Shown in pieces: positions 1-56,872 of a DNA stretch of 64,000 nt. This stretch comes from Streptomyces sp. SID8374. Lineage in GTDB: Bacteria; Actinomycetota; Actinomycetes; Streptomycetales; Streptomycetaceae. Both the position numbers and the translations under genes were made by a program. The notes below the pieces were generated by a model. That model was given only the letters and a program-made list of their open reading frames with translations. It had not been told where the DNA came from and made no database searches. The stretch is from NCBI RefSeq assembly GCF_009865135.1, contig NZ_WWGH01000002.1:2046001-2110000 (forward strand). The letters are read 5' to 3'. The first letter of the stretch is position 1. Every line of letters begins with the position of its first letter.

Positions 1-3000
1 CATCACCTCGGAGGTGGTGTGGCGGGCCGCCGCGTCGGGCCACACGCCCTCCCGGCGCAGGACGTCGACCATGCGGCGCAGCGCCGCGTCGTCGAGTACG
101 GCCGCGAACTCCACGACCTTCGCCACATCCACCCCGGCGCGGATCTCATCGGCCGACGCGAGGACTTCGGGCCGCAGGGTGGCGTCCACTGCGTGGTCGG
201 CCGGGTCGGCCTGCGCCGGGGAGACGAAGGCGACCAGCCTGCGGTCGTTGCGCTCGCCCTGGGTGGCCACCGCCACCGCGTCCACCTGCGGGTCGGCGGC
301 CAGGGCCGACTCCACCTCGGCCAGTTCGATGCGGTGGCCGCGGATCTTGACCTGCCGGTCGTCGCGGCCGATGAACTCGAGGGCCCCGTCGGGCAGATAG
401 CGGGCGAGGTCGCCGGTGCGGTAGACCCGCTCACCGTCCGGCAGCTCCAGGAAGCTCGCCGCCGTTTTCGCCGGGTCGCCGAGATAGCCCTCGGCCAGGC
501 CCGTACCGGCGATGTAGAGGTCACCGACGACGAGGTCGGGGCTGGGCCGCAGCGAGGCGTCCAGCACATGGAAGCGCTGGTTCTCCAGCGGAGTGCCGTA
601 CGGGATGCTCGGCGCCTCGGGGTCGACCTCGCCGATCGGGTGGACGATCGACCAGATCGCCGCCTCGGTGGCGCCGCCCAGGCTGAACAGCTCCACCCGG
701 GGCAGGCGGGCGCGGACGGCGTCGGGGAGCGTCACGGGGATCCAGTCGCCGGACATCATGCCGAGCCGGATCCCGGTGAACTCGCGCCCCTCGCCGCGCA
801 GATACTCCTCCAGCAGCATCATCTGGGCGGGCACCGTGTTCAGCACGGTCACCCCGTGCCCGGCGATCAGCTCACCCCAGTGCGAGGGGTCGGTACGGCG
901 CTCCGGGGCGGGGAGCACCAGGGTGCCGCCCCGGCCGAGAACGCCGAAGATGTCGAAGACCGAGAGGTCGAAGCCGAGGCTGGAGAGCCCCAGCGCGACA
1001 TCGTCCTCGCCGATCCCGAAGCGGCGGCAGACGTCGTCGAGGGTGTTCACCGCCGCCCGGTGGCTGATCTCCACCCCCTTCGGCTCGCCGGTGGAGCCCG
1101 AGGTGAAGATGACGTACGCCGAGTCCCCGGGGGCGACCCGCACCGCCTCGGGCCCGGTGGCGGGCGTCCCGGGCAGCCGGTCCACATCGATGCGCCCGAC
1201 CCCGGTGGGCAGTTGGGCCCCGACCGTGCTGTGACCGACCACCAGGCCGATCCCGGCGGACTCGATGATCCTGTTGCGCCGGGCATCGGGCTGGGCGGCC
1301 TCGATCGGTACGTAGGTGCCCCCGGCCAGCAGCACCCCGAGCGCCCCGGCGATCTGCTCCCAGCCCTTCTCCAGCACCACCGCGACGCGCTGGTGCGGCT
1401 TGTGGCCGTGCTCGGCGAGCGCCGCGGCCACGGCAGCGGCCCGGCCGGTCAGGGTGGCGTAGTCGACGCTCCCGCCGTGACCGGTCACGGCCGTCGCCTC
1501 CGGGCGGCGGCGCGCCTGGTCCATCAGCGCCTGGTGGAGGAGGGCGTCACCGACCGGGCGGGCGGTGTCGTTGACCGCCGCCCGGCGCCGCGCCTGGTGG
1601 GCGGGGAGCGTCAGCGGGTCGCTGTCCCAGGCGCCGTCCTCGTCGGCGAGCCGGTGCAGCAGGGTGCGGAACGCGGCGAACATGTCGTCCAGCACCGGGG
1701 CGGGCACGGTGTCCTCCCGCACGTCCCAGTTGACGAGCAGGGAGCCCCCGGACTCCATGGCCTGGCAGTCCACCCAGACCTGCGGCGTCTGGCTGATGCC
1801 GTTGCGGATCTCCGACCGCATCAGCCCCTGCGGGGCCAGGCCGTCGGAGAGCCCGATGGCGCTGGTGAACACCACGGGCATCAACGACCCCTGCTGTCCC
1901 CGGCGTCGCGTCAGCTCGCGCAGCACCTCCACCCCCGAGAACAGCCGGTGGTCCAGGTCCTCGAAGAGCTGCTCCCCGGCCTTCCGGGCGCGCCCGGCGA
2001 ACGTGTCGGCGCAGCCGCCGTCGACGGCCAGCAACTCCACGGAGGTGAAGTCCCCGACGATCGCGCCGACATCGGGGTGCAGGGGCAGCCGGCTGAGCAC
2101 CGTCACATCGAGGGTGAAGCGCGGACTGCGGCTCCAGCGGCCGATGACCTCGGCGTACGCGGCCATCACCGCCGTCGACGCGGAGATCCGGTGCTCCCCG
2201 GCGCGAGCCTTCAGCGCCGACCAGACGGCGGGCTCCAGTCGCAGTTCGCGGCGGACGAAGCTTGCCGTGCCCTGCCGGCTGGGCCGGGCCACCAGCGGCA
2301 GTTCGGGCGCAGGCGGCAGGCTGTCCAGCCGCGCCAGCCAGTAGTCGCGGTCCCGCTCGTAGGCGGGGCCCTGCCGGACCGCGCGCTCCGCCCGCAGATA
2401 GTCGCGGAACGAGATCGCCGGGGCCGGGAGGTCCGCCTCCGGGTCCTCGTAGAAGGTGCCGAACTCGTCCAGCAGCCGGTAGATGCTCACATAGTCGGCG
2501 ATCAGGAAGTCGATCGAGAAGTGCAGGACGGCCCGGTCGGCCAGCTCGGTGACCTCCAGGGTGTACAGCGGGCACGCGGTGACGTCCTTGGACTCCTCGG
2601 AGAGCCGGCCGCGGACCTCGCGCAGCACCTCCTCGCCCGCCGGGCCCGGCAGACCGGTCGCGTCGTGCCAGCCGATGACCGGGGCGGGCGGGTCCTCCAG
2701 GACCCGCTGGTAGCCGTCGTAGTCGATGACCACGCGCAGCATCTCGTGCCGGTCGACCACCCGGCGCCAGGCCCGCAGCAGCCGGTCGCGGTCCAGCCCG
2801 GCGAACTCCAGCTCACCGTAGGCGTGGCAGGGCACCGACCCGTACGCGAAGGCGCCCCGGCGGCCCAGCAGGTACGCCGACTGGACCTCGGTGAGCGGGA
2901 ACGGCTCATGGGCCGACGCGGGGTCCGGCCGCACCTGGCGCGGGCCGCGCTCGCGCAGCTCCCGCAGAACGTCCTCCCGCCGGCCGGCCAGGAGCTTCCG

Positions 3001-3111
3001 GCGCTCGGGGGTCATCGCCCCCTCCGGCCCCCGGAAGCGGAGCTTGCCCCCGTCCTCCCAGAGGTGCAGGCCGACCTGTTCGAGTTCGCTGATGATGTCG
3101 GCGGCGGTCAC
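1..3111 (-). CDS. NRPS, TubC dock-Cy-A with domain inserted in A (partial)
   Basis: The gene runs off the left edge; 1037 residues are visible. It starts GTG at 3111, overlapping the stop of the upstream NRPS gene (GTGA), so the two are translationally coupled. Residues about 1-55 match a TubC-type docking domain. A condensation-type domain follows; at about residues 201-209 it has D-FLIA-D-YV-S, the DxxxxDxxS signature of heterocyclisation (Cy) domains, in place of HHxxxDG. The adenylation domain (about 510-960) has TSGSTGEPKG and the A4 stretch FDLSVFDIF. By-eye specificity residues are D-L-F-N-M-S-L-I-W, close to cysteine codes. After the A8 core (KIRGHRIEL) the chain does not go on to A9/A10. 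It enters a helical linker like those before the methyltransferase or epimerase domains inserted in pyochelin and yersiniabactin A domains. Predicted role: third cysteine heterocyclisation, with possible C-methylation or epimerisation. Confidence 0.9.
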   Translation of the reverse strand, partial: MTAADIISELEQVGLHLWEDGGKLRFRGPEGAMTPERRKLLAGRREDVLRELRERGPRQVRPDPASAHEPFPLTEVQSAYLLGRRGAFAYGSVPCHAYGELEFAGLDRDRLLRAWRRVVDRHEMLRVVIDYDGYQRVLEDPPAPVIGWHDATGLPGPAGEEVLREVRGRLSEESKDVTACPLYTLEVTELADRAVLHFSIDFLIADYVSIYRLLDEFGTFYEDPEADLPAPAISFRDYLRAERAVRQGPAYERDRDYWLARLDSLPPAPELPLVARPSRQGTASFVRRELRLEPAVWSALKARAGEHRISASTAVMAAYAEVIGRWSRSPRFTLDVTVLSRLPLHPDVGAIVGDFTSVELLAVDGGCADTFAGRARKAGEQLFEDLDHRLFSGVEVLRELTRRRGQQGSLMPVVFTSAIGLSDGLAPQGLMRSEIRNGISQTPQVWVDCQAMESGGSLLVNWDVREDTVPAPVLDDMFAAFRTLLHRLADEDGAWDSDPLTLPAHQARRRAAVNDTARPVGDALLHQALMDQARRRPEATAVTGHGGSVDYATLTGRAAAVAAALAEHGHKPHQRVAVVLEKGWEQIAGALGVLLAGGTYVPIEAAQPDARRNRIIESAGIGLVVGHSTVGAQLPTGVGRIDVDRLPGTPATGPEAVRVAPGDSAYVIFTSGSTGEPKGVEISHRAAVNTLDDVCRRFGIGEDDVALGLSSLGFDLSVFDIFGVLGRGGTLVLPAPERRTDPSHWGELIAGHGVTVLNTVPAQMMLLEEYLRGEGREFTGIRLGMMSGDWIPVTLPDAVRARLPRVELFSLGGATEAAIWSIVHPIGEVDPEAPSIPYGTPLENQRFHVLDASLRPSPDLVVGDLYIAGTGLAEGYLGDPAKTAASFLELPDGERVYRTGDLARYLPDGALEFIGRDDRQVKIRGHRIELAEVESALAADPQVDAVAVATQGERNDRRLVAFVSPAQADPADHAVDATLRPEVLASADEIRAGVDVAKVVEFAAVLDDAALRRMVDVLRREGVWPDAAARHTTSEVM

Positions 3112-6100
3112 AGGACACCTTCTTCCAGTCGTACGGACGCTTCGTGCTGGTGGCTGCCGGAGATCTCGCCGTCGACGACGGCGGCGATCGCGGCGACGGT
3201 CGGATGGTTGAAGAGCTGCCGCAGGGAGAGCTCCACGCCGAAGCGCTGCGAGAACTGCTGGATGACCCGGGTGGCGATGAGACTGTCGCCGCCCAGGCCG
3301 AAGAAGTCGGCCGAGCGGCCCACCTCGGGCGCCGCCAGCAGCTTTGCCCACACCTCGGCCACCGCGCGTTCGGTGCCCTCACGCGGCCGGTCGTCGGCGG
3401 GCGGCGCCCCGGCCGTGCGGCGCGGGCCGTACAGGCGGGCGACGGCGGCGCGGTCCACCTTGGCGTTGGCGCTCAGGGGCAGCCGGTCGACCAGGGTGAG
3501 GTGCTCGGGGAGCATGTAGGACGGCAGATGCCCGGCCAGCGCGGCCAGCAGCTCCGCCTCCTCCGGCGCCGGGCCGGTGCCGGGCTCCGGGGTGACGACC
3601 GCGGCCAGGCGGCGTACGCCCGCACCGCTGTCGACCCACGCCACGGCGTTCGCGACACCGTCCAGCTCACGCAGCCGGGTCTCGATCTCCCCGAGTTCGA
3701 TCCGGTGCCCGCGCACCTTCACCTGGTGGTCGCGCCGCCCGAGGAACTCCAGGACGCCCGAGGGGTGGTAGCGGCCCAGGTCGCCGGTCCGGTACCACCT
3801 CTCGCCGCCCGCCTCCACGAAAGCGGCCGCGGTGCGCTCGGGGTCCCCGCGGTAGCCGAGCGCCACCCCATCACCCCCGATCCACAGCTCGCCGGGGACG
3901 AAGTCGGGCCGGTCGCGGCCGTGTTCGTCGACGACGCGGAAGCACTGGTTGGCCAGCGGATATCCGTACGGGATCGACACCCACGCCGGGTCGAGGGCCG
4001 TCACGTCGAAGGCGTTCGACCAGATCGAAGCCTCGGTGGCGCCGCCCATGGCGACCAGGAGCGCGTCGGGGGCGACCGCCCGGAGCCGGTCGGGCAGGTC
4101 CAGCCCCACCCAGTCGCCCGAGACGATCGCCACCCGCAGCCGCGACAGGTCCGGGCCCGACTCGCAGGCCACCAGCAGCATGTCGAGGAGGGTCGGCACC
4201 GTGTTCCAGACGGTGACCCCGTGCTCGGCGGCGAGGCGGGCCCAGACGGCCGCCTCCCGCCAGGTCTCCTCGGTCAGCGTCACCAGCGTGCCGCCCGCCC
4301 CCAGCAGCCCGAACAGGTCGTAGACGGACAGGTCGAAGTCGAGGGCCGAGACCTGCAACGCCACATCGCCCGGCCCCACGCCGTAGCGGGCGTTCACGTC
4401 GTCGATGGTGTTGGCCGCGGCCGCGTGGCTGATCTCCACCCCCTTGGGCTCACCGGTGGAGCCCGAGGTGTAGATGACGTACGCGATCCGCGCCGGGTCG
4501 ACCGGTACGGGCTCCGCCACCAGCTCGGCCCCCGTCGCCTCGGCCACCGGGACCAGCCGCACCGCCCCGTCCCACTCCTCCCCGGCGCCCGGACCCGCTT
4601 CGACCAGGGCCAGACGCGCCCCGGCGGAACGCACGATCCGGTTGCGCCGCCCCGCAGGCTGGCCGACGCCGACCGGTACGTAGCAGCACCCGGCGGCCAG
4701 GACGCCGAGCACCGCGACCACCTGGTCGGGGCCCTTCGGCAGCGAGACGACCACCGGGTCGCCCGGCCGGGCCCCGAGCGCCAGGAGGTGCCCGGCGACC
4801 GCGAGGGTGCGCTCGGCCAGCTCGGCGTAGCTCAGCACGGACCCGGAGGCCGAGCGCACGGCGACGGCGTCGGGGGAGGTGCGGGCGTGGTCCAGGACGG
4901 GCTGGTGCAGCGTACGGGAGGGGCGGGCGACGGCCGTGTCGTTGACCCCGGCGCGGACCTTCGCCTGCGCCTCGGGGAGCCTGATCGGCGGGGCCGGGCG
5001 GGACCAGTCGCTGTCGGCCAGCTCCACCAGGAGGCGGCGCATCGCCTCCAGGGCGGCGGGTACGACCTGGGGGCTGTGGAGGCCCTCGACATGGTCCCAG
5101 TTGACGGCGAGGCCGCCGTCCCGCTCCACCACCTGGCAGTCCAGGGCGACCTGCGGGCTCTGCGAGAGGCCGCGCCGCAGCTCGCCGAAGCCGAACGTCA
5201 GGTCCTTGAAGTCCGCGCTGACCCCGAGGGTGGAGGTGAACACCACCGGCATCAGCATCTGACCGCCCCCGGTGCGGCGGGCCAGCTGCTGGAGCACCCA
5301 GGTGGTCGGGACGTTGTTGTGCTCGATGCCCTCCCAGACCTGCCCCTGGAGCCGTCGCACGGTATCGGCCCAGGAGCTGTCGGGGTCGCTGTGGTGGCCC
5401 AGCAGCAGCAAGGAGGTGAAGTCGCCCACCACCTGGGCCACTTGGGGGTGCACATCGCGCCGGTCGAAAACCGTCAGGTTGAGCGTCAGCGAGGTCTCCG
5501 CGCTCCACGCGGCCAGCACCTCGGCGAAGGCGGCCGCCACGACGGTCGAAGCGGTCAGCCCCGCCTCGGCGGTCCGGCGGCGCAGCCGCGCCCAGGTCTC
5601 CGGGGAGAGCCGGAACTCCTCCCGCACGAAGCGCGGCCGGTCGACGTGTTCCGGGTCGAGGGCCATGGGCAGCGCGGGGGCGGCCGGCAGCTCCTCGATC
5701 GCGGCCAGCCAGAACGCCTCGTCCCGCGCCCTGGCCGCCGGGTCGGTCCGCTCGGCGAGCAGATAGTCGCGGAAGGACAGCTCCAGGGGCGGGAGTTCGC
5801 GGTCGGGGTCGGCGTAGAGCGCGGACAGTTCGGTGAAGATGGTCATGATCGACAGCGCGTCGAGGACGACGTAGTCGAAGCCGACCCCGAACACGGTGTG
5901 CCCGTCGTCCCGCCGCACGGCGCGTACGTCGAACAGCGGCCAGGAGGTCACATCCAGCACCTGTTGCTCCATGGTCCCCAGCTCCTCGACCGCCTTCTCG
6001 TGGTCGGCGGCGGTGGTGCGGGTGACCGCGAAGCGGTAGTGCGGGACCTCGGGCAGGATCCGCTGCCCGCCCTCGCCGTCCAGCACGGCGCGCATCATCT

Positions 6101-9100
6101 CGTGGCGCCGCACCAGCCGGTTCCAGGCGGCCTCCAGCCGGTCGAGGTCGACGTCGTCGCTCTCGAACTCCCAGTACCAGTAGGACGCGACACCGCCGAG
6201 CGCGTAGCCGGGGTCGCGGCCGAGCCAGTAGGCGCGCTGCACATCGGTGAGCGGGAACGGCTCGTGGCGACGGGCCGGATCGGCCGGGACGATGCCGGGC
6301 GCGGCGGCCTCGACGGCTTCCAGGGTCGCGGCGAAACCGCTCACCGTGGGCTGGGTGAACAGGTCGCCGAGCCGCGCCTCGTACCCCTGGCGGCGAAGGG
6401 CGGCGAGCATGCGGGTGGCCTGGAGGCTGTCCCCGCCGACATGGAAGAAGTTGGTGGTCCGGCCGGCCCCCGTACCACCGAGAAGCTCGGCCCAGAGTGC
6501 GGCCACGGTCTGCTCCGCCCGGCCGCGGGGGGCGTCGCCGTCGGACGTCCGCTCACCCAGCGCCTCGGCCAGCAGCCGCCGGACCTCGGCCCGGTCGACC
6601 TTGCCGTTGCGGCTCAGCGGCAGCTGGTCGGTGGCGACGGCACGGGCGGGCACCATGTACTCCGGCACCTGGAGGGCGGCGGTGGCGAGCACCCCCTCGG
6701 TGTCGGCCCCGGCCGGGGTGACCAGCGCGTACAGCGCGCCGCCGTGCTCGGGAACCGGTACGGCGACGACGTCACGTACGCCCGGGTGCCGTCCCAACGC
6801 CCGCTCCACCTCGCCGAGTTCGATCCGGTAGCCGTTCAGCTTGACCTGGAAGTCGGCGCGGCCCAGGAACTCGATCACGGCCCCCGGCCGGTAGCGGGCC
6901 CGGTCGCCGGTGCGGTACCAGCGCCGCCCGTCAGCCTCCACGAACTTCGCCGCCGTCAGATCGGGGGAGCCCACATAGCCCCGCGCCACCCCGGCCCCGC
7001 CGATCCACAGCTCACCGGCCACCCAGTCGGGGCGGTCCCGCCCGTGCTCGTCGACGATCCGGCAGAACTGGTTGGGCAGCGGCACGTTGTAGGGGATCGA
7101 CGTCCAGGAGGGGTCGACCTCCGCGACCTCCTGGACGGTCGAGTGGATCGCGGTCTCGGTGGTCCCGCCCAGCGCGACGAAGACGCCGTCCGGGCGCAGC
7201 GCGTGCACCCTGCCGGGCAGGTCGAGTCCGGCCCAGTCGCCGCCGAGCAGGTGCAGCCGGAACGGCCACTCGCGTAAATCCGTCAGTGACTCCGCCGTCG
7301 TCAGCGCCATGTCCAGCAGCGCGGGTACGCAGTTGAGGACGGTGGCCCGGTTCCCGACCGCCCGGCGCAGCCACACCTCCGGCGAGCGCCGCTCCTCGTC
7401 GCCGACCAGGACCAGGGCGCCACCGCAGGTGAGGGGCGCGAAGATGTCGTAGACGGAGAGGTCGAAGTCGAGTGCCGACAGGCACAGCGTGCGGTCGGCG
7501 GGGCCCACCGCGTAGCGCCGGTTCAGCGCGGCCACGGTGTTGCGGGCCGCCGCATGGGTGAGCTCCACCCCCTTGGGCTCCCCGGTCGACCCGGAGGTGA
7601 AGATCACGTACGCCGGGTCCTCGGGCGAGACGGCGGCCAACCGCTCCAGCAGCGGCACCCCCGGATCGGTGCCGCACCCCACGTCGACGGTCAGGATCCG
7701 GCCGTCGGCATCTCCGCGATCCCGGCCGTCGGTCACCGCGAAACGGGCCCCGGCCCGGGACTCGACCACCCGCCTGCGTGCCTCCGGCTGGTCCGTCCCC
7801 ACCGGCACATAGGCCGCGCCCAGCGCGTGCACCGCCAGCACCGCGACCACCTGGTCGACGCCCTTGGGCAGTGTGATCACGACCCGGTCGCCCGCGGTGA
7901 CGCCCGCCGTCCGCAGGACATGGGCCAACCGCCGTGCGCGCTCGTCGAGTTCGGCGTAGGTCAGTTGCCCGCCGTCGCCCCAGAGTGCCGCCGGTGCGTC
8001 GCCGCTCGCGGCGGCCAGCCGGAAGAACTCCTCGTGCAGGGTGCCGCCGGGCAGCTCGGCACGGGTGTCGTTGGCGTGTCGGCGCGCCTGGATCTGCGGT
8101 GCGGGCGGCCGGATCGGCAGACTCTCCCACCAGGCGCTGGGCTGCGAGGCGAGCAGCCGTACGCGGTTGACGAAGGTATCGAACATCGCCTCGGGGACCC
8201 CGGCCTCGAAGAGGTTCTCGGTGGTCTCCCAGTTGATCAGCATGCCGCCCTCGTGCTCGGTCAGCTGGAGGTCGATCCACACGCCCGACGTCTGCGAACT
8301 CATCCACACCGGGGCGCCCAGCACCGCACGGGTCGCCTCGTCGAAGAGTTCGCCGAGGCTGAGCGCGCTCGTGAACACGACCCCCGCCCGCCGGCCGGCG
8401 CCGGCGGTGGTCCGGGCCAGGTCGCGGAGGACCGATGTGCCCCCGTACGCCGTGTGCGCGGCGTCACGGCGGTACTGCTCCTGCACCGCACGGGCCCGCT
8501 CGGTGAAGGTGCGGCAGGTGTCGGGCGCCACCCTGAGCAGCAGTAGATCCGTGAAGTCCCCGACGAGGGAGCCCACTTCGGGGTGGACCGGGATCCGGTT
8601 CAGCACCGGCAGGTTGAGCAGGAACTCCGGGCCGTCGCTCCAGGCCGCCAGAGTGTCCGCGTAGGCCGTGGCGACCGCCATCGACACCGTCAGCCCGCTG
8701 CTGCGCGCGTGCTGGGTGAACCGCTGGTACGTCTCCGGGGCCAGCCAGGCGTGGCGCCGGACGGTGTGCACCCGGTCGACCCGCTCCGGGGCCACGGCCA
8801 GGGGGAGTTGCGGTGCGCTGGGCAGCTCCTCGGCCCGGTCGCGCCAGTACGAGACATCGGCCGGACGGGGCTCCCGGCCCGATGCGGCGACGAGCCGGAG
8901 GTACTCGGGAAAGGTGAGAGCGGGCTGCGGGGGAGCGGTGTCCGGGTCCCGGTAGTGGCGGGCCAGGTCGCCGATGACGATGCGGAAACTCGACGCGTCG
9001 CAGACGATCATGTCGATGTCGAGGAAGAGCCGGCCCTTCCCGTCCGGCAGCAGCGCCAGCCGCACATCGAGTCCGCCCCCACGGCCGACCGGCAGCGTCT

Positions 9101-11086: not shown

Positions 11087-11196
11087 CCGGGCCCGCCCGG
11101 TCCCCGGGGTCAGGGTGAGGGCACCTGTGTCGCGTGCGGCGCCCTCGCACGGCGCCCGATCCCGTCCAGCGGCACCGTCACACGGGAGGTAGCTCC
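11087..11196. promoter_or_regulatory. Divergent promoter region of NRPS and MbtH-A-PCP genes
   Basis: These 110 bases separate the leftward NRPS operon from the rightward MbtH-A-PCP gene and must hold both promoters. A GGGAGG ribosome binding site at 11184-11189 fixes the ATG at 11197. I see a direct repeat of CGGCGCCC within about 11135-11156, but no iron box and no copy of the ACGGGGG heptamer. Confidence 0.5.
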
Positions 11197-13140: not shown

Positions 13141-13151
13141 AGCCGCGTCGG

Positions 13152-13175
13152 CCCCGCCGGGCGCCCCCGGCGGGG
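13152..13175. terminator. Hairpin between convergent genes
   Basis: A 10-bp GC-only perfect stem (13152-13161 with 13166-13175) and a 4-base loop lie in the 40-bp gap between the converging MbtH-A-PCP gene and the P450 gene. It can serve as a bidirectional terminator. There is no T tract, which is usual in this type of genome. Confidence 0.6.
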
Positions 13176-13180
13176 GCGGC

Positions 13181-14422
13181 TCAGTCCAGCCGCATCCGCA
13201 GCGCGCTGTGCCCGAAGAGGAAGTTGGAGTAGACCCGGGGCGGCTCCTCCAGGATCTCGATCCGCTCCACCCGGCGGATCAGGGAGTCCAGTACGGCGGA
13301 GAGCTCCAGCCGGCCGAGGAAGGCCCCGAGGCAGAAGTGCGGGCCGTGGCCGAGGGACAGGTGCGGGTTGTGGTGCCTTGCGACATCGAAGCGGCGGGGC
13401 TCCGCGAAGACGTCCGGATCGTTGTTGGCCGAGATGTTCCACAGGGTGACGATGTCGCCCGCTGCCACCTCCGCCGGGCCGATCCGCAGATCCGTGGTGG
13501 CCGTGCGGGCGAAGTGCATGGCCGGGGTCACCCAGCGGAGGACCTCCTCCACCGCGGTCTTCACCGCCACCTCGCCGTCGCGCAGCCGCCGCCACTCCTC
13601 GGCGTACGTCCCCAGCGCGTGCAGCGCACCGATCGTGGACACCCGGGTCGACTCGTCGCCACCGAGGATCAGGCTGTAGCAGTTGAGGGCGAGGTCGTCC
13701 TCGCTCATCGGCCCGCCCCCGACGTCGGCGCGGGCGATCATGCTGATCACGTCCTCGCCGGGGGAGCGGCGGCGCTCACGCACCACGTCCACGAAGTAGG
13801 ACAGAATCTCGTTGCGTGCCTCCAGCGCGTCGAAGAGGTCCTCCTCGACGCTGTCGGAGGAGAGGGCGCGCTTGTTCCAGGCGAGCAGCTGGGGCCGGTC
13901 CGCGACGGGCAGCTCCAGAAGGTCGCACACGGTGTTGAGCGGCAGGTGCTCGGCGATGTCGCGCCCGGCGTCGGCCTCGCCCGCGCCGGCCACGGCGGCG
14001 ACCAGGGCATCGGCCCGCTGCCGTACGGCCTCCTCCACATGACCGAGGACGCGCGGGGAGAAGGAGCGCAGCATCACCTGGCGCAGCTCCCGGTGGCGGG
14101 GGCGGTCCATCACCGCCAGCATCCGGCCACCGGCGGAGTCGCCGCCGCGCAGCAGGACGTCCAGCACCGTGCCCCGGGCCGAGCTCAGCCCGGCGGCGTC
14201 CTTGTAGCAGTCCTGGACATCGCCGTACCTGGCCACCGCCCAGAAGCCCGGCCGGGCGCCCACCGGAGGGTGCCAGCGCACCGGTTCGTCGCGGCGCATC
14301 CGAGCCCAGTAGGCGTGCGGGTCGTTCTTGATGAAGGCGGCCGGATCGGTGAGGTCGAGAGCGCTGCCGGAAGTGTCGTCGTACGGAGTGCCGGAGACGG
14401 CGGCGTTGCCGGAGGAGACCAC
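13181..14422 (-). CDS. Cytochrome P450, predicted aminoacyl-PCP beta-hydroxylase
   Basis: This 413-residue P450 has all core elements. The heme-ligand loop is GHGPHFCLG with Cys near 364, the K-helix motif is EEVLR, and the oxygen-binding I helix is GGDEST. The start is GTG at 14422, with AAAGGAG about 8 bases upstream. It converges on the MbtH-A-PCP gene. In novobiocin-, nikkomycin-, echinomycin- and thiocoraline-type pathways such P450s hydroxylate the beta carbon of an amino acid held on an A-PCP protein. Here the likely substrate is tryptophanyl-S-PCP. Redox partners (ferredoxin, reductase) are not encoded nearby. Confidence 0.93.
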   Translation of the reverse strand: MVSSGNAAVSGTPYDDTSGSALDLTDPAAFIKNDPHAYWARMRRDEPVRWHPPVGARPGFWAVARYGDVQDCYKDAAGLSSARGTVLDVLLRGGDSAGGRMLAVMDRPRHRELRQVMLRSFSPRVLGHVEEAVRQRADALVAAVAGAGEADAGRDIAEHLPLNTVCDLLELPVADRPQLLAWNKRALSSDSVEEDLFDALEARNEILSYFVDVVRERRRSPGEDVISMIARADVGGGPMSEDDLALNCYSLILGGDESTRVSTIGALHALGTYAEEWRRLRDGEVAVKTAVEEVLRWVTPAMHFARTATTDLRIGPAEVAAGDIVTLWNISANNDPDVFAEPRRFDVARHHNPHLSLGHGPHFCLGAFLGRLELSAVLDSLIRRVERIEILEEPPRVYSNFLFGHSALRMRLD

Positions 14423-14596
14423 CGGGAGACTCCTTTCGGCCCGGACGCCGGGCCTGCACGGGGGTGAACTGTCGCCCCGATACTCACCTTTCGCGCCCGC
14501 CGCCGAGGTGGCGCTGAATGAATGATGAAGGATTCGGCGGCGCCCCTCCGCCCCGGTGCGATGCTCAAGTCCGCATCGGCGAACGGGAGGTCGGCC

Positions 14597-15388
14597 ATGG
14601 GTGTGCACCGCGGAGCTGTCCGTACTGTGACGGGCCATCCGCACCCCGAGCTGCGTCTTCTCGCACTGCCGCACTCCGGCGGCCGGGCCGAGGGCTTCAC
14701 CGCCTGGCGCCCCCTGCTGCCCGCCGCGTTCCCCGGCGTCGCGCTCGAACTGTGCGCCGCGCAGTACCCCGGACACGGCGACCGGCTGGCCGAAACGCCG
14801 CTGACGGAGGTCGGCGCGATCGCCGACGAGATCGTCGCCGGACTCACCGGGATGGCACCGGCGGACCTGGTGCTCTTCGGCCACAGCTTCGGATCGGCCG
14901 TCGCCTGCGAGGTGGCCCGCCGCTGCCCCGGAGCCGGCATCGGCGTCGTCCTGCTCGTGGCCTCGTCGGCCTGGGCCCCCGGCGACCCGGCACGGCCCCC
15001 GCGCGACGAGCACCTGCTGCCCGACGAAGAGCTCTGGCAGCGGCTGATCGCGTTGGGCGGCATCGACCCCGGCATCGCCGCCGAGGCCGAGGTGCGCGAT
15101 CTGGTGCTCCCCGCGCTGCGCGCCTCCATCGCCGCCCACGAGCGCTACCTCGCCTGCCCGGACCCCCTCTCGCTCAGCTGCGACGTGCACGCCTGCATGG
15201 CCCGGGGGGACCCGCTCGTGCCGGTCGGGGCCGGGCGCTACTGGTCCCGGGTGACCACGGGGAGAGCGAGCGTCGGCATCAGGGCCGGGGCGCACTTCCA
15301 CGCCTACGACGACCCCGCCCCCCTGCTGGCGGACCTGGCGCGGAGAGTTCCGGCGTACGCGAAAGGAGGTCGTACGACGCATGAGTAG
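14597..15388 (+). CDS. Type II thioesterase
   Basis: This 263-residue alpha/beta hydrolase of the NRPS/PKS type II thioesterase family has the nucleophile elbow GHSFG, an N-terminal LPHSGG stretch, and a late His in GAHFH. The start ATG at 14597 is chosen because GGGAGG sits 6 bases upstream. It opens a tightly packed rightward operon: its last 8 bases overlap the SDR gene. By analogy to the TioQ/Ecm2 step, it should hydrolyse beta-hydroxytryptophan from the carrier protein. General editing of the NRPS line is the alternative. Confidence 0.92.
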   Translation: MGVHRGAVRTVTGHPHPELRLLALPHSGGRAEGFTAWRPLLPAAFPGVALELCAAQYPGHGDRLAETPLTEVGAIADEIVAGLTGMAPADLVLFGHSFGSAVACEVARRCPGAGIGVVLLVASSAWAPGDPARPPRDEHLLPDEELWQRLIALGGIDPGIAAEAEVRDLVLPALRASIAAHERYLACPDPLSLSCDVHACMARGDPLVPVGAGRYWSRVTTGRASVGIRAGAHFHAYDDPAPLLADLARRVPAYAKGGRTTHE

Positions 15389-16139
15389 TCCATGGGACGG
15401 CCTGCGGCTGGTCGTCACCGGCGGCGGATCGGGCATCGGGGCCGCAGTGGTCACCCGCGCGGTCGGCCTGGGTGCCGATGTCCTCGCCGTCGGGCGACGG
15501 GCCGACCGGCTGGAAGAGGTCACGGCGAAGGCGCGGGCCGACGGTACGGGAAGGGCGGTGCCGTACGTCGTGGATGTCACGGCCCCCGGCGCAGCCGCCC
15601 GGATCGCGGACCGCGCACGCGAACTCCTCGGCGGGGTCGACGCGTTGGTCAACAACGCCGGGCACGCCGTCTTCGACCGCCTGGAGGACGCCACCGAGGC
15701 GGACCTGCGGGGGATGCTGGACACCAACCTGGTGGCCCCCGCCCTGCTGACCCGGGCGCTGCTGCCGGAGCTCCGCACCAGCCGGGGCTGCGTGGTCAAC
15801 GTCTCCTCCGTCGGCGGGGTCGTGGCGATGCCGGGCCGGTCCTACTACGGGGCCGGCAAGGCCGCGCTCAACTCCCTGACCAGGTCGCTGGCGGTGGAGC
15901 TGGCGCCCGACGTCCGGGTGAACGCGGTGCTCCCCGGCCCCGTCGACACCGGACTGTGGGACACGGCGGCGGGCGACGGCGCGGACGCCCTGCGCGCGGG
16001 AATCGTCGCCGCGACACCGCTGGGCCGCTTCGGCCTGGCCTCGGAGGTGGCGGCCTGGGTGTGCCACCTCATCGACCCCGAGACCTCGTCCTGGGTCACC
16101 GGATCCCTGGTGTCCGTGGACGGCGGACGAGCGGCGTGA
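15381..16139 (+). CDS. Short-chain dehydrogenase/reductase
   Basis: This 252-residue classical SDR has the nucleotide-binding motif TGGGSGIG near the N terminus, NNAG, the Ser of the catalytic triad in VSSVGG, and YYGAGK as the YxxxK pair. A strong AAAGGAGG site precedes the ATG, which lies inside the end of the thioesterase gene. In the predicted quinaldate route an oxidoreductase is needed either to oxidise a beta-hydroxy group or to reduce a 4-oxo quinoline before dehydration. This enzyme could do either. Its exact step cannot be read from sequence. Confidence 0.9.
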   Translation: MSSPWDGLRLVVTGGGSGIGAAVVTRAVGLGADVLAVGRRADRLEEVTAKARADGTGRAVPYVVDVTAPGAAARIADRARELLGGVDALVNNAGHAVFDRLEDATEADLRGMLDTNLVAPALLTRALLPELRTSRGCVVNVSSVGGVVAMPGRSYYGAGKAALNSLTRSLAVELAPDVRVNAVLPGPVDTGLWDTAAGDGADALRAGIVAATPLGRFGLASEVAAWVCHLIDPETSSWVTGSLVSVDGGRAA

Positions 16140-16203
16140 GCCGGCAGCCAGGAGCACCATCCCGCCGGCCTGTCCCGGCCGGTCCTGCCACCAGCGGAAA
16201 GGC

Positions 16204-17454
16204 ATGAATCAGATGACGCAGACAGCTCCACCGTGGTTCGCCAGGGCCTCGGCGATCCCCTCCTCCTGGCTGTACGAGTCCTTCCGAATCGCCAACGAGC
16301 GCGAACGGGAGCACCCCGGGCTGATCAAGCTGCACGTCGGAGAGCCGGCGTTCGGCCCACCGGAGTCCGTGGCCAAGGAATTCGCCGCCGCGGCCCTGGA
16401 CGGCCGGGCCCGCTACATCGACGTACAGGGGCTCATGGAGCTCCGGGAGCGGCTCGTCGACAAGCTCGCCACCGTCAACGGCATCGACACCGAGCCCTCC
16501 CGCCTCTTCGTCACCCCGGGATCGTGCCAGGGGCTCGTCGCCCTGATGCGCTGCCTCGTCGAACCGGGGGCGGAGATCCTGCTGCCGGAGATCCACTGGC
16601 CCGTCCATCTGCAACAGGCCCTGCTCGCCGGATTCCGCCCGGTGTTCTACCGACTCGACGAGCACTTCGCCCCCGACCCCGAGTCGATCCGGCGGGTGGC
16701 CACCCCGGCGACCCGGCTGCTGCTGCTCAACACCCCGTCGAACCCCGCCGGTGCGGTCGCCGGCCTGCCGCTCCAGCGGGCCCTGTACGACATCGCGGAC
16801 GAGCACGGCTGGCAGATCATCAGCGACGAGGCGTACGAGGACTTCGCCTTCTCCGGCCCGCACCTCTCGATCGCCGCGCTGGAGCGTGGCCGCCCCGCCG
16901 CGGAGCGCCTCGTCAACAGCGTCTTCACCTTCTCCAAGGGGCCGGCGATGACCGGCTACCGGCTCGGTTACGTCGCGGTGTCGCGGCCCGAGATCGCCAC
17001 CACCATGCGGATGGTGCAGGAGGCGAACATCATCGCGCCCTCCGCGCCCGTCCAGTACGCCGGGATCGCCGCCCTGGACGCCTCGGGCGACCTCGCCGGG
17101 AACCACGACTACGTGCGTGGCAACCGCGACGCCGCGCTGTCCTGTCTGGTCGACGAAGGGCTGCTGCCCGCACTGCCCGGCGGCGGCTGGTACGTCATGG
17201 CCGACATCTCCTCCACCGGCATGACCGGCGAGGAGTTCACCGCGGAACTCATGATCCACCACGATGTCGTGGTCGTACCCGGCAGCGGATTCTCCGCACG
17301 GCCGGAATTCGGCCACGACGGCTCAATGCAACCCCTGCGGCCCGGCGGTGTCGCCTCCGGCCTCGTCCGGATCGCGTTCTGCGTGGACCGGGATCAGCTC
17401 ATCACCGGGGTGGAGCGGCTGGTCGGCCTGGTCCGCGAGAAGAGGCAGCAGTGA
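16204..17454 (+). CDS. PLP aminotransferase, kynurenine-type
   Basis: This 416-residue fold-type I (class I/II) aminotransferase shows NTPSNPAG, SDEAYEDF and the Schiff-base lysine context FTFSKGPAMTGYRLGY, with a C-terminal Arg in LVRIAF. AAAGG precedes the ATG at 16204. It lies between the SDR and the tryptophan dioxygenase; the dioxygenase start overlaps its stop. Predicted role: transaminate beta-hydroxykynurenine so that the keto acid cyclises to a hydroxylated kynurenic (4-hydroxyquinaldic) acid, as proposed for TioG in thiocoraline. Substrate choice is inferred from context. Confidence 0.9.
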   Translation: MNQMTQTAPPWFARASAIPSSWLYESFRIANEREREHPGLIKLHVGEPAFGPPESVAKEFAAAALDGRARYIDVQGLMELRERLVDKLATVNGIDTEPSRLFVTPGSCQGLVALMRCLVEPGAEILLPEIHWPVHLQQALLAGFRPVFYRLDEHFAPDPESIRRVATPATRLLLLNTPSNPAGAVAGLPLQRALYDIADEHGWQIISDEAYEDFAFSGPHLSIAALERGRPAAERLVNSVFTFSKGPAMTGYRLGYVAVSRPEIATTMRMVQEANIIAPSAPVQYAGIAALDASGDLAGNHDYVRGNRDAALSCLVDEGLLPALPGGGWYVMADISSTGMTGEEFTAELMIHHDVVVVPGSGFSARPEFGHDGSMQPLRPGGVASGLVRIAFCVDRDQLITGVERLVGLVREKRQQ

Positions 17455-18170
17455 CATCGGCCGAGCTGACCTATGCCGCCTATCTGAAACTCGACGAACT
17501 GCTCCAGCTCCAGGAGCCGCGCACCGCCCAGGACGACACCGACCCCACCAAGGTCCTCTCCGAGCAGTTCTTCATCGTCAGCCACCAGACCTGCGAGCTG
17601 TGGCTGAAACAGATCCTCGGCGATCTGGCCGCCGTCGAGGGCCACTTCCGGACGATGACCACCGCCGACCTGGAGCGGTCGGTCGACCTGCTCTACCGCG
17701 CCGGTGAGCTGCTGCGCCTGCTGCACGAGCAGCTCATGGCGCTCGAACGGCTGCCGCTGGAGGACTTCGCCCACTTCCGGCAGTACCTCGGCTCGGCCAG
17801 CGGCGCCCAGTCCACCCAGTCCCACCGGCTGGAGCGGGTGCTGGGCAACGCCAAGCGCGCGGGCTCGCTGTTCCTGGCCTTCCGCACCGGCCTGGAACGC
17901 ACCGGCGCCGACCTGGAGGAGATCGTCGGAGCCGGGGTCGGGGCCGGCTCCCTCCACCGGGTCATCGAGGGGATGCTGCGCGTCGGCAACGGCTACTTCC
18001 AGTGGAAGCTCGGCCATGTGGGCCTGGTGACGAAGATGATCGGGGAACAGCGGGGCACCGCGGGCACCTCGGGAGCCGGGTATCTGATGGACCGGGCCAC
18101 GATGCCGTTCACCGAACTCCACGAGCTGCGCGGCAAGATGCACGAACGCCGCCAGGAGCAGATCGGCTGA
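17451..18170 (+). CDS. Tryptophan 2,3-dioxygenase family protein
   Basis: This 239-residue heme dioxygenase is shorter than housekeeping TDO (about 270-280 residues). It keeps the diagnostic stretches FIVSHQTCELWLKQIL, the heme-ligand His in WKLGHVGLV, and the glycine-rich loop GTAGTSGAGYL, which in ordinary TDO reads GTGGSSGYHYL. The Tyr-to-Cys change in HQT(Y>C)ELW and the altered loop may reflect a modified substrate such as beta-hydroxytryptophan. Start GTG at 17451 overlaps the aminotransferase stop. Reaction: open the indole ring to (beta-hydroxy-)N-formylkynurenine. No arylformamidase is present in the window, so deformylation is by a host enzyme or an unrecognised gene. Confidence 0.92.
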   Translation: MTSAELTYAAYLKLDELLQLQEPRTAQDDTDPTKVLSEQFFIVSHQTCELWLKQILGDLAAVEGHFRTMTTADLERSVDLLYRAGELLRLLHEQLMALERLPLEDFAHFRQYLGSASGAQSTQSHRLERVLGNAKRAGSLFLAFRTGLERTGADLEEIVGAGVGAGSLHRVIEGMLRVGNGYFQWKLGHVGLVTKMIGEQRGTAGTSGAGYLMDRATMPFTELHELRGKMHERRQEQIG

Positions 18171-18190
18171 CTTTCTCCCGTACGCGGAAG

Positions 18191-18220
18191 TGTCCGGCCC
18201 CTGGTCACAGGGGCCGGACA
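18191..18220. terminator. Bidirectional hairpin terminator
   Basis: A perfect 13-bp stem (18191-18203 with 18208-18220) with a 4-base loop lies between the end of the thioesterase-to-dioxygenase operon and the end of the leftward regulator gene. It probably terminates both. Confidence 0.8.
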
Positions 18221-18243
18221 CCTTCGGTCCGCCGACGGGCGGT

Positions 18244-18759
18244 TCAGGAGGCGGGCTCCAGGATGTAGCCCCTGCCCCACACGGTGCGCAGGCTCAGACG
18301 GACGCCGTCCAGCCGCTGGCGCAGCCGCATGATGTGCAGGTCTATGGCGTTGCTGGTGACCGCCTCGTTGGTGATCCGGCTCAGGGCCTCCTTCAGCCGG
18401 TCCCTGCGGACCAGGTGGCCGAAGTCGGCCAGGAAACATCGCATCATCTCGCTCTGCGCCTCCGACATCGGCACCGAGTGCCCGCCGTAGTAGAGCACCC
18501 CGGTCGGATCCAGCGCGGGCACGAAATCGGTCCCGGTCCGCCGCTGGAGGGTGTGGACACGGGCCGCCAGGTCGAGGCGGGCCACCGGGGGACGTACCCA
18601 GTCCTCGGTGGGAGAGATGTCGCTCGGCGGCGCCGACTGGCCCTCCAGCACCAGCAGGCAGGGCAGTCCGGCCTCACGGAGCCGTTCGCGTTCGCGGCTC
18701 TGTACCGGCCAGCGGAGAAATCTGACTTCTTGTCGGTGAGCGAGCATGGTCGTGGTCAT
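18244..18759 (-). CDS. OmpR-type winged-helix regulator without a normal receiver domain
   Basis: The C-terminal half is a clear OmpR/PhoB winged helix: the stretch around LSEAQSEMMRCFL-like helix 1, recognition region NAIDLHIMRLRQRL, and the wing LRTVWGRGYIL. The N-terminal half is short, begins RFLRWPVQSRERERL, and has no visible phospho-acceptor Asp/Lys set, so it is not an ordinary response regulator. I chose ATG 18759 because GGGGGT lies 7 bases before it; ATG 18786 in the same frame is possible but lacks a binding site. It is convergent with the biosynthetic operon and divergent from the FAD monooxygenase. It is the obvious candidate pathway regulator. Confidence 0.8.
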   Translation of the reverse strand: MTTTMLAHRQEVRFLRWPVQSRERERLREAGLPCLLVLEGQSAPPSDISPTEDWVRPPVARLDLAARVHTLQRRTGTDFVPALDPTGVLYYGGHSVPMSEAQSEMMRCFLADFGHLVRRDRLKEALSRITNEAVTSNAIDLHIMRLRQRLDGVRLSLRTVWGRGYILEPAS

Positions 18760-18786
18760 GGTCGTGACCCCCGTATCGCGTGACAT

Positions 18787-19139
18787 GGAAGCTGGTGCCG
18801 GAGGCCGGTGGCCTCATCGGAGTGCGCTCTCTCCCTGGTTTCGACGTCGACTCCCCAAGTGACTTCGACCCCGGTCCCCGTGCGTCAGATCCTGCCGGAT
18901 CCCGGTTCCAGGTCGGTGCCGGGCGGATTCCGCCCCGGCCGGATTCGATACCGGAGCCGCCACGGCCCCGCGCACCCCGGGAAAGGGTGAAAGAAGCGCG
19001 ACATGGCCGGGCGGCGGGCCTGTTGATCGGCAAGACACCTCAGTACGGGGGATCTACGGGGGACTCACGGGGGCCACGGGGGGTCTACGGGGGTCGACCA
19101 TCTGAAACCGCTGACCACGGTCATGATCAGGAGCACGCG
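18787..19139. promoter_or_regulatory. 353-bp divergent regulatory region with ACGGGGG heptamer array
   Basis: No gene is seen here. At 19045, 19056, 19067, 19076 and 19087 there are five direct copies of ACGGGGG spaced 11, 11, 9 and 11 bases, roughly one helical turn apart. That is the layout used by OmpR-type winged-helix activators. The 10-mer TACGGGGGTC at 19086-19095 recurs exactly, inverted, at 18766-18775, just before the regulator start. CAGGAG at 19128-19133 is the ribosome binding site of the FAD monooxygenase. Confidence 0.6.
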
Positions 19140-20336
19140 ATGAAGAGCGAGAACAGCACACAGCGCCGACGAGCCGCCGTCGTCGGTGCCGGCATCACCG
19201 GGCCTCTCCTGGCCTTCTGCCTGGTGAGGCTGGGCTTCGAGGTGGACCTGTACGAGGCGTACATCCGCCGGGTCCAGGACATCGGCTCATTCCTCAACCT
19301 CGCCCCGAACGGGCGCGCCGTGCTGGAGCGCCTCGGCCTGGCCGACCGGGTGCTGGAACAGGGCACGGTGGCCGGATCCATCACCTTCGCCAACCACAAG
19401 GGCCGGGAGCTCGCGCGGAACCCGGAGAGGACGACCAACATCATGCGCGGCGAACTCAGCGGAGCCCTGCGCGACGCGGCGACCGACGCCGGAGCGAAAC
19501 TGCACTGCGACAAGCGCCTCGTCGCGCTGGACGGGACCGGCGACGACCGCTGGCGGCTCGGCTTCGAGGACGGCACCGGGGCGGAGGCCGACCTCGTGCT
19601 CGGCTGCGACGGGGTGCACTCCACCACACGGGGGCTGCTGATCCCCGACGCGCCTCGGGCCGAGTACACCAAGGTGGTCGGCTCCGGGGGCAGGTCGGAG
19701 ATCGGCACCGGGGAGCTGCCCGTCGACGGCCAGTTCCACATGGTCTTCGGACTGCGCGGCTTCTTCGGCTACCAGGTGGTGGAGCCCGGCGTCGTGTGCT
19801 GGTTCGAGAACCACCAGGACGCCCGCGAGCGCGGCTTCGCCGAACTGGCCGGGATCGACGACGCGGAGTGGGTGGCCGACCTGGCCGAGCGGCACCGCCC
19901 CGACCCCGCGGTGGTCCGGCGCATCCTGACCGCCTCCACAGGGCGGGTCGGCCGGTGGCCGGTCTACGAGGTGCCGCCCCTGGGGACCTGGCACCGCGGC
20001 AGCGCCGCCGTACTGGGCGACGCCGCGCACGCGGTGGCCCCGCACCTGGGGGCGGGCGCCGCCCTCGGCATGGAGGACGCCTACGAACTGGCCCTGGCAC
20101 TGCACGAACACCCCACCGCACCAAGGGCGTTCAGGGCGTTCGAGGAGTCACGCCGCGACCGGATCGCCGCGATGGCGAAGCAGGCCCGGCAGACCGGCGC
20201 GGTGATGACCCCGAGCCACTGGGCCGCCCGGACGGTACGGGACCTGATGCTGCCGATCGCCATCAAGCAGGGCGTACGCAAGGGGACCGAGGCCTACTCC
20301 TACCGCCCCTCGCCATGGCCCGTGCAGGCCGGCTGA
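19140..20336 (+). CDS. FAD-dependent aromatic monooxygenase
   Basis: This 398-residue group A flavoprotein hydroxylase (PHBH fold) has the FAD motif VVGAGITG at the N terminus, the DG motif GCDGVHSTTR, and the GD motif LGDAAHAVAPHLGAGA. CAGGAG sits 6 bases before ATG 19140. Placed at the end of the tryptophan-to-quinaldate gene set and behind its own regulatory region, it probably hydroxylates the kynurenine- or quinoline-derived intermediate. Comparable flavoenzymes occur in quinoxaline/quinaldate clusters. Regiochemistry cannot be told from sequence. Confidence 0.88.
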   Translation: MKSENSTQRRRAAVVGAGITGPLLAFCLVRLGFEVDLYEAYIRRVQDIGSFLNLAPNGRAVLERLGLADRVLEQGTVAGSITFANHKGRELARNPERTTNIMRGELSGALRDAATDAGAKLHCDKRLVALDGTGDDRWRLGFEDGTGAEADLVLGCDGVHSTTRGLLIPDAPRAEYTKVVGSGGRSEIGTGELPVDGQFHMVFGLRGFFGYQVVEPGVVCWFENHQDARERGFAELAGIDDAEWVADLAERHRPDPAVVRRILTASTGRVGRWPVYEVPPLGTWHRGSAAVLGDAAHAVAPHLGAGAALGMEDAYELALALHEHPTAPRAFRAFEESRRDRIAAMAKQARQTGAVMTPSHWAARTVRDLMLPIAIKQGVRKGTEAYSYRPSPWPVQAG

Positions 20337-49903: not shown

Positions 49904-49981
49904 CCCTCCCGCACCACCGATCACTCCTTCCAGCACCGCCCATCCGCCCATCCGCCCATCGCACAGAGAGGGGGCAGCCCC

Positions 49982-51010: not shown

Positions 51011-51012
51011 CC

Positions 51013-53668: not shown

Positions 53669-53705
53669 ACACACCCCCGTAACCAGCCCCACGGAAGGAC
53701 CAGCC

Positions 53706-55046: not shown

Positions 55047-55055
55047 GGCCCCGCC

Positions 55056-56846: not shown

Positions 56847-56872
56847 TCCCCCCACCGAGCCAGGAGCCCCAG

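Follow-up and report, generated by a model that had tools for sequence, protein, structure and literature searches.

A pyochelin-type thiazoline assembly line in Streptomyces sp. SID8374 with a predicted 3-hydroxyquinaldate start

A stretch of 64,000 nucleotides from Streptomyces sp. SID8374 (the window; bases 2,046,001-2,110,000 of contig 2, in a genome of 7.78 Mb) raises the question of which acid starts a thiazoline-forming nonribosomal peptide synthetase (NRPS) whose neighbours resemble genes for turning tryptophan into a quinaldate. A preliminary description, made from the same letters, had joined a quinaldate-type starter pathway to a pyochelin-type line with three heterocyclisation (Cy) domains, and this is borne out: the genes lie in one conserved cluster with a quinaldate-class ligase and no salicylate synthase above cut-off. 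We consider it likely that they form a single ~44-kb cluster, a Cy line of the coelibactin/sorangibactin type in which the salicylate starter has been replaced by the 3-hydroxyquinaldate (3HQA) cassette of thiocoraline-type bisintercalators, which are DNA-binding antitumour peptides. The chemistry is deduced from sequence throughout, as is the direction in which the starters were exchanged. The cluster starts ~23 kb left of the window (negative coordinates below) and ends ~20.8 kb inside it, so that the interval 1-20336, earlier taken as the whole, was too short by ~23 kb on its left side. Genes were called in the window and the 30 kb leftward with a simple codon-composition caller, which leaves start codons approximate; domains were assigned by Pfam scan and by motifs read from the sequence. 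Papers are cited by their PMC numbers.

The assembly line itself is encoded on the minus strand by two synthetases. NRPS g025 (3108..9707; 2199 amino acids) has the order ArCP-Cy-A1-PCP-Cy-A2-PCP (ArCP, aryl carrier protein; A, adenylation domain; PCP, peptidyl carrier protein), and NRPS g024 (3111 to -2291, leaving the window; 1800 amino acids) consists of a TubC_N docking domain followed by Cy-A-MT-PCP-TE, with an embedded methyltransferase (MT) and a terminal thioesterase (TE). All three Cy domains of the preliminary description were recovered, two in g025 (motifs DMIVCD and DYVVLD) and one in g024 (DFLIAD), and the N-terminal ArCP of the line is present in g025 by both Pfam and motifs. In g024 the MT carries the motif GAGVG and the TE the motif AHSGG, a Ser type as judged by eye. 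The operon is headed by a stand-alone condensation (C) domain of the HHxxxD type, g026 (9704..11026, minus strand), and runs in one direction through g026-g025-g024-g023-g022-g021-g020, with start and stop overlapping at every joint. Its last four genes encode a saccharopine-dehydrogenase-like protein, a thiazolinyl reductase (g022; TIGR01761, 348.6 bits against a cut-off of 188.8), a type II thioesterase and an O-methyltransferase. The features of a coelibactin/sorangibactin-type line are found together in one operon, namely ArCP-Cy-A-PCP-Cy-A-PCP and Cy-A-MT-PCP-TE with the saccharopine-dehydrogenase-like protein and the thiazolinyl reductase; the salicylate start of that type, a synthase plus a salicyl-AMP ligase, was not found.

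Specificity codes read by eye offer a further level of detail. The code is DLYN followed by L, G, L, I, H in A1, DLYN followed by I, S, M, I, W in A2, and DLFN followed by M, S, L, I, W in A3, the A domain of g024. Three cysteine-like domains had been claimed; A2 and A3 do look cysteine-like, but A1 has a variant code that could be read as Cys or Ser. Its letters are identical in the five readable proteins of this and the sister type (this cluster, G227, G148, G040 and G304; both A-domain rows of G395 were left out, being the same protein). Among single-domain matches in the PDB, A2 scores highest against PchE (433.8 bits), which also ranks among the best for A1. For the first A domain of sorangibactin, Cys was predicted and Ser inferred by the authors (PMC10127202).

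Across a divergent promoter region of 170 bp (11027..11196, between g026 and g027) lies the putative 3HQA cassette. It opens on the plus strand with g027 (11197..13140; 647 amino acids), an MbtH-A-PCP fusion predicted to load Trp, a substrate suggested by its family, as the A-domain code could not be tied to Trp. The adjacent P450, g028 (13181..14422, minus strand), is a predicted beta-hydroxylase of PCP-bound Trp; its best PDB match is 4l0e (1e-131; next match 1.9e-80), which we take to be P450sky, a hydroxylase of PCP-bound amino acids. There follow, all on the plus strand, a thioesterase predicted to release beta-hydroxy-Trp (g029, 14522..15388, with the start at 14522 or 14627), a short-chain dehydrogenase/reductase (SDR) with a TioH/Swb2-like place in the pathway (g030, 15381..16139 by the start in the open-reading-frame list, the gene caller having chosen 15447), a class I/II aminotransferase with a TioG/Swb1-like role (g031, 16204..17454) and a small tryptophan 2,3-dioxygenase (TDO; g032, 17451..18170, 239 amino acids). 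Aligned with dioxygenases in the PDB, the TDO retains both His-bearing regions; it passes the Pfam cut-off (119.6 against 34.9) but stays under that of the NCBIfam equivalog (108.4 against 390.7), which is what a short and divergent TDO should show.

The published 3HQA route comprises an A-PCP with MbtH, a P450, a TE, a TDO, an aminotransferase, an oxidoreductase and an AMP ligase, whereas TrsO/Ecm4/Qui12 and a dehydrogenase serve in the route to quinoxaline (PMC4052310, PMC3578932). This full 3HQA gene set is present here, with the ligase left of the window, and the presence of the aminotransferase and the SDR points to 3HQA rather than quinoxaline. The complete Trp-to-quinaldate set proposed earlier also included the FAD monooxygenase g034 (19140..20336, plus strand). 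While the MbtH-A-PCP, P450, TE, SDR, aminotransferase and TDO keep their places in that set, g034 has no step in the published route (PMC4052310) and looks like an extra tailoring gene.

Do the two halves belong together? The order g025, C domain, MbtH-A-PCP, P450, TE, SDR, aminotransferase, TDO is unbroken in ten of ten relatives (L046-L055), which excludes chance. With this cluster and G005 included, the arrangement occurs in 12 genomes of two genera; in G005 the parts from reductase to MbtH-A-PCP and from SDR to FAD monooxygenase match at 93-98%, the 3 kb expected to hold P450 and TE being unread. In the divergent loci L054/L055, the ligase, both P450s, the phosphopantetheinyl transferase (PPTase) and the genes for a fatty acyl-AMP ligase (FAAL)-like and an acyl carrier protein (ACP)-like protein directly adjoin the TDO. 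Both halves are thus kept together though permuted, indicating one cluster, and two unrelated neighbouring clusters were rejected as an explanation. TDO genes at >=82% identity were found in 6 of 392 same-genus genomes, this one included, and the 14 titled records among the TDO matches comprise 12 from Streptomyces, one from Actinopolyspora and one, at ~50% identity, from Lentzea. The FAD monooxygenase is more variable: six of the 10 loci have it at full length, in G397 and G395 it sits at another place in the cluster, and it is absent from the G396 contig. At L047 11797-12043 (Streptomyces sp. ST2-7A) it is reduced to two short fragments, with the remainder of the read block present, and these fragments hint that the core product may be made without it.

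The ArCP had been called loader-less; a loader does exist, 16-18 kb left of the window, as a stand-alone aryl-AMP ligase resembling DhbE and salicylate ligases (-17731..-16124, minus strand), with the PPTase alongside. It scores 538.9 bits, below the cut-off of 723.55 for 2,3-dihydroxybenzoate (DHB)-AMP ligases. Among 28 genomes searched, the top 12 ligase matches (72-100% identity, own included) are of the same type and come from TDO-containing genomes; ten more, at 54-59%, belong to other genomes that have a close TDO. Ligase and TDO share a contig within ~35 kb in 18 of these 22, the shared contig of G392 and of G394 being confirmed by length and content; in G221, G393, G395 and G017, all draft assemblies, they are on different contigs. 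In a tree of 38 ligases, the 22 from TDO genomes together with one on contig 20 of G016 are separated, at 100/100, from the remaining 15, which are of salicylate type, of DHB type or unassigned. The binding pocket follows the same division. At the equivalent of DhbE Y236, 21 of the 22 have Ala and one has Ser, the other 16 having Phe in 15 cases and Ala in the G016 row; at the 329-equivalent, Trp stands for Val in 21 of the 22. The motif HNAALGC is shared by this ligase and those of G040, G304 and G399, with HNSALGC in G346, all from TDO clusters that were read through and contain an aminotransferase, and it recurs in the G017 ligase, which has an aminotransferase on the same contig. In the five ligases that we assign to clusters of the quinoxaline type, this motif is HQAALAC instead. 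Two of those five clusters were read (G400 and G285), and both have genes that correspond, in length and order only, to the isopropylmalate dehydrogenase, FAD oxidoreductase and UvrA-like genes of the PMC3578932 table. The ligase on contig 20 of G016 (L085) has HAAALAC. Tree and pocket place the cluster ligase in the quinaldate class, apart from the salicylate and DHB ligases, and the quinoline start is well supported. The preliminary description had named a salicylate or DHB synthase with a matching ligase left of the window as the finding that would overturn it; a ligase is there, but of the quinaldate class.

These results bear directly on the idea that two pathways merely adjoin, the Cy line being a salicylate or DHB metallophore line fed from elsewhere and the quinaldate genes serving another product. 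Salicylate genes do lie elsewhere in some lines (PMC12971057), and this genome has a DHB pathway with its own ligase on contig C1 (187000-204000; L012), comprising a DhbA-like SDR, a DhbC-like isochorismate synthase (500.2 bits against a cut-off of 486) and a ligase that groups with the DHB types in the ligase tree; the locus lies near NRPS condensation domains. The DHB genes, however, make up a locus with a DHB-type ligase of its own, and nothing in the genome exceeds the cut-off of the salicylate synthase model TIGR03494, in line with the earlier statement that this gene is absent. Tblastn of four relatives' salicylate synthases, DhbC and TrpE against the 52-kb cluster region found nothing at 1e-3. 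In eight regions of the TDO type and in L046-L055, the chorismate-enzyme queries likewise gave no match at 1e-3, and they matched 7 of the 10 salicylate-type loci fetched for comparison. A salicylate or DHB start was rejected on ligase class and on the lack of a salicylate synthase above cut-off. With the two gene sets together in all ten loci, in two genera, and differently arranged in L054/L055, separate pathways appear highly improbable to us.

A bicyclic starter other than 3HQA itself, such as a quinaldate with additional hydroxyl or methyl groups, an acid of the kynurenate type or quinoxaline-2-carboxylate, has more in its favour. The FAD monooxygenase occurs in most clusters of this type that were read, and the O-methyltransferase g020 in this cluster, G227, G148, G040 and G304. 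G040 and G304 form a sister branch (L120-L125) with the same line, ligase, SDR, aminotransferase, TDO, FAD monooxygenase, FAAL, ACP and exporter at 41-64% identity. Lacking the beta-hydroxylation genes, they keep the TDO, aminotransferase, SDR and ligase and carry instead a methyltransferase (306/309 amino acids) and a second protein (329/324 amino acids), which in G040 matches AurF in Pfam; a homologue of P450 g028 is found elsewhere in G304 at 52%, the best in G040 reaching 33%. From this gene content, the sister clusters probably make a different quinoline acid. In the present cluster, by contrast, the whole 3HQA set is found. The isopropylmalate-dehydrogenase-like and FAD-oxidoreductase-like genes of G400 and G285 are unmatched at 1e-10 by the proteins of this cluster that were tested, its ligase lacks the HQAALAC motif, and a quinoxaline start was rejected on gene content and this motif. 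Taken as a whole, we regard a different bicyclic acid as unlikely. G017 had been considered as a further sister line and was withdrawn, its ligase, TDO and reductase lying on different small contigs and the reductase on the salicylate side; it stays among the 22 ligases.

The genes around the ligase raise the question of another role for the quinaldate. Beside the PPTase, they encode two P450s, a BBE oxidase, methyltransferases, an ABC-2 type exporter, a BTAD regulator, a FAAL-like enzyme that stays below its cut-offs and an ACP-like protein with no Pfam match; g015, also left of the window, is an FAD protein by N-terminal sequence only. The lone C domain and the FAAL-like and ACP-like proteins are conserved with the cluster, and no separate place was listed for them in the ten salicylate-type loci, places overlapping the NRPS having been filtered out. 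Quinaldate could then be a cap attached through the C domain or a FAAL-ACP pair, leaving the ArCP to carry something else. Against this, the FAAL-like enzyme is distinct from the aryl ligase, and the sole aryl ligase found in the cluster belongs to the quinaldate class. A Cy line that begins with an ArCP also requires an aryl acid, of which no other source was recognised in the cluster, and we judge a cap to be improbable. As to the C domain itself, a fourth Cy domain was rejected: its motif is HHMVTDS, and the PDB entries that match it best are listed under Txo2, Txo1 and other synthetases, not as Cy domains. It is conserved across the quinaldate clusters, and a FAAL-ACP pair has been raised as its possible partner.

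With 3HQA as the favoured starter, the origin of the core line can be considered. The thiazolinyl reductase occurs in 15 of 199 same-genus genomes at 1e-40, and the ten salicylate-type loci all have the core of NRPS, saccharopine dehydrogenase and reductase as far as contig ends allow. A chorismate-enzyme homologue is close by in seven of them, and the four scanned all pass the salicylate-synthase cut-off. No TDO or aminotransferase match was listed in these loci; genome-wide, an aminotransferase match at 1e-80 is missing from nine of the ten, the exception being G152. This genome has a salicylate-type line and, on another contig (458, L163), a 3HQA cassette with no TDO match in the stretch read; it was kept in the salicylate set, and its second reductase locus (contig 677, of which 12 kb was read) is outside the ten counted loci. 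Cassettes of this kind on broken contigs, in G152 (contig 458, L163) and G017 (L166/L167), are found in genomes that also have thiazolinyl reductases. In the saccharopine-dehydrogenase tree, six rows, from this type and G040/G304 together, form one clade (100/99) apart from nine salicylate-type rows, and in the reductase tree seven rows of this type with G040/G304 form one clade at 100/100. Such a pattern is consistent with an exchange of starters in a line of the coelibactin type, the trees being unrooted and the direction deduced.

Several observations weigh against this picture of a 3HQA-started, coelibactin-derived line. The A1 code is atypical, and no dedicated formamidase was recognised for the cassette. 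The G040/G304 clusters lack the MbtH-A-PCP, the P450 and the TE, yet have the same line and ligase class. The ligase clade is not strictly diagnostic, as it includes the G016 contig 20 ligase, whose genome has its TDO on another contig, and a fragmentary G017 row falls on the salicylate side of the reductase tree. The 3HQA class was assigned through gene sets from papers and through co-occurrence and trees of relatives, rather than TioF/TioJ/TioH sequences. Kinship with coelibactin was likewise read from gene content and trees of relatives.

The preliminary description had further called the product a metallophore. Coelibactin is under Zur control (PMC3430247, PMC8000910). Using a Zur consensus and a limit of <=3 mismatches, we found Zur-like sites in 8 of the 10 salicylate-type loci, those of G007, G136, G113 and G190 lying in the divergent promoter between ligase and NRPS or upstream of the salicylate synthase. 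By this consensus and limit, none of eight TDO-type clusters has such a site, nor do L046-L055 (the G395 region was scanned without its main promoter, which was scanned in L053). The window holds neither a Zur-like nor an IdeR-like site at <=3 mismatches, with 0 Zur matches expected at 3 mismatches from the shuffle control, and this cluster has no IdeR-like site at <=5 mismatches. Looser matches exist: Zur-like ones with 4 mismatches in this cluster, G148, G397, G304 and L053 (one shuffled copy per region gave 0-2 at loose limits), an IdeR-like one with 5 mismatches outside the cluster in G040 and one with 3 in the salicylate-type G007. The ABC genes of this cluster are DrrA-like and ABC-2 type, with no fused ABC_membrane transporter among the genes scanned, and fused ABC_membrane-ABC_tran transporters were confirmed as three proteins in two salicylate-type loci.

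The promoters of the cluster contain an element of their own. TGAAAGAAA at 11045-11053 of the divergent promoter is conserved in 11 of 11 aligned clusters, and TGAAAGAA is found upstream of the FAD monooxygenase (18988) and in the G040/G304 clusters. Together they are possibly a site for a cluster regulator, either the BTAD protein or g033 (18244..18786, minus strand), a cluster-conserved winged-helix regulator of 180 amino acids with a Trans_reg_C domain. Judged by the absence of the Zur motif, which is indirect evidence, and by transporter type, the cluster reads as having shifted from metal acquisition to export. We are less sure of a metallophore because the TDO-type clusters lack Zur-like sites and this one has an ABC-2 exporter and a BTAD regulator; as originally worded, that part of the preliminary description is not supported, and antibiotic-like export and control fit better. 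A true metallophore for iron, copper or zinc, re-imported by the producer and placed under another regulator, would be in keeping with a core line homologous to lines that resemble the zincophore coelibactin type, with the weak 4-mismatch matches in this cluster, G148, G397 and G304, and with general chemistry, 3-hydroxyquinolyl-thiazoline being a good chelating motif. Set against the difference in Zur-like sites and the DrrA-like/ABC-2 export genes, we see this as a possibility of clearly less than even standing. Somewhat better placed, though still short of an even chance, is the tentative proposal that a zincophore-type line became an antibiotic line in Streptomyces and Actinopolyspora. It would have acquired a 3HQA start, a quinoline of the DNA-intercalator type, and given up zinc control, while an exporter of the ABC-2 type was added along with antibiotic-type regulators and acyl and oxidative tailoring; it would now make an undescribed hydroxyquinolyl-oligothiazoline, possibly a metal-dependent intercalator.

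Following the published route, the MbtH-A-PCP protein would load Trp, the P450 would hydroxylate it at the beta position and the TE would set it free. The TDO would open the indole ring, the formyl group would be lost, the aminotransferase would close the new ring and reduction by the SDR would yield 3HQA. The stand-alone ligase is expected to adenylate 3HQA and load it onto the N-terminal ArCP of g025, and from the domain order the three Cy modules would incorporate either three Cys residues or one Ser followed by two Cys. The last ring would become an N-methylthiazolidine through the action of reductase g022 and the embedded MT, with the TE releasing a hydroxyquinolyl-azoline-thiazoline-thiazolidine acid. 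The untailored core (3HQA-azoline-thiazoline-N-methylthiazolidine acid) would have the formula C20H20N4O3S3 (460.070 Da); with Ser in first place it would be C20H20N4O4S2. The lone C domain, the FAAL-like and ACP-like proteins, two P450s, FAD enzymes and methyltransferases probably decorate the core, and the ABC-2 pump would export the product.

Comparison with known systems places the cluster between several families. It shares the NRPS line, the saccharopine-dehydrogenase-like protein and a P450 with coelibactin (S. coelicolor; predicted structure) and sorangibactin, and the modular order, reductase and type II thioesterase with the salicylate-type relatives, whose kinship with coelibactin we infer from gene content and Zur-like sites. 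Unlike coelibactin and sorangibactin, which start from salicylate, it has a 3HQA ligase and cassette and no salicylate synthase above cut-off. Their TE is said to use Cys (PMC10127202), whereas the present one has Ser by eye; coelibactin is Zur-controlled, whereas no Zur-like site at <=3 mismatches is found here; and the present cluster has extra FAAL-like, ACP-like, C and FAD genes and ABC-2 export. Thiocoraline and SW-163 have the same MbtH and A-PCP, P450, TE, TDO, aminotransferase, oxidoreductase and AMP ligase. In contrast to those systems, MbtH is fused to the A-PCP and the cassette feeds a Cy (thiazoline) line rather than a depsipeptide line; no UvrA-like gene was found among the cluster genes scanned, and Cy lines take the place of the NRPS of a bisintercalator chromodepsipeptide. 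Echinomycin and triostin pathways have in common with it the early Trp steps, a small winged-helix regulator and the ligase clade, but differ in their isopropylmalate-dehydrogenase-like and FAD-oxidoreductase-like genes (as in G400/G285) and in the ligase pocket motif. A further quinaldate system, the quinolobactin-type siderophores (8-hydroxy-4-methoxyquinaldate), is characterised by a route through kynurenine 3-monooxygenase and by the ligase QbsL. Pyochelin and yersiniabactin lines are alike in Cy-A domains and reductase, and PchF has an embedded MT in its last module, as does g024. Starter and tailoring are different, and the three Cy modules are split here over an ArCP-led protein and a second one.

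Replacement of the salicylate start has a precedent in a predicted 1,4-dihydroxy-2-naphthoate (karamomycin-like) thiazoline line (PMC12971057), although the replacing pathway there is menaquinone-derived and here Trp-derived. The preliminary description knew of no described compound with this combination, and searches limited to open-licence papers, hence weak evidence of absence, turned up neither a quinaldate-started thiazoline line nor such a compound. In the excerpt of PMC12971057, the chelator list of the metallophore rules names no quinaldate pathway.

Two further features were recorded on the right side of the window. A cluster-conserved protein with a glyoxalase/bleomycin-resistance fold, g035 (20467..20847, minus strand), follows the FAD monooxygenase. 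Outside the cluster, at 48329-57634, N-terminal sequences only indicate a set of genes resembling a peptide-type ABC transporter and, after it, genes resembling flavin enzymes.

Within a family of NRPS metallophores, the locus seems to record a natural exchange in which an entire pathway for a starter acid was swapped together with its ligase. Relatives exist on either side, lines started by salicylate on the one and a sister branch lacking the beta-hydroxylation genes on the other, and they make starter exchange and its functional effect directly testable. The ligase-pocket signature at the 236- and 329-equivalents could help genome-mining tools, and an undescribed hydroxyquinoline-thiazoline scaffold is predicted in at least 12 genomes.

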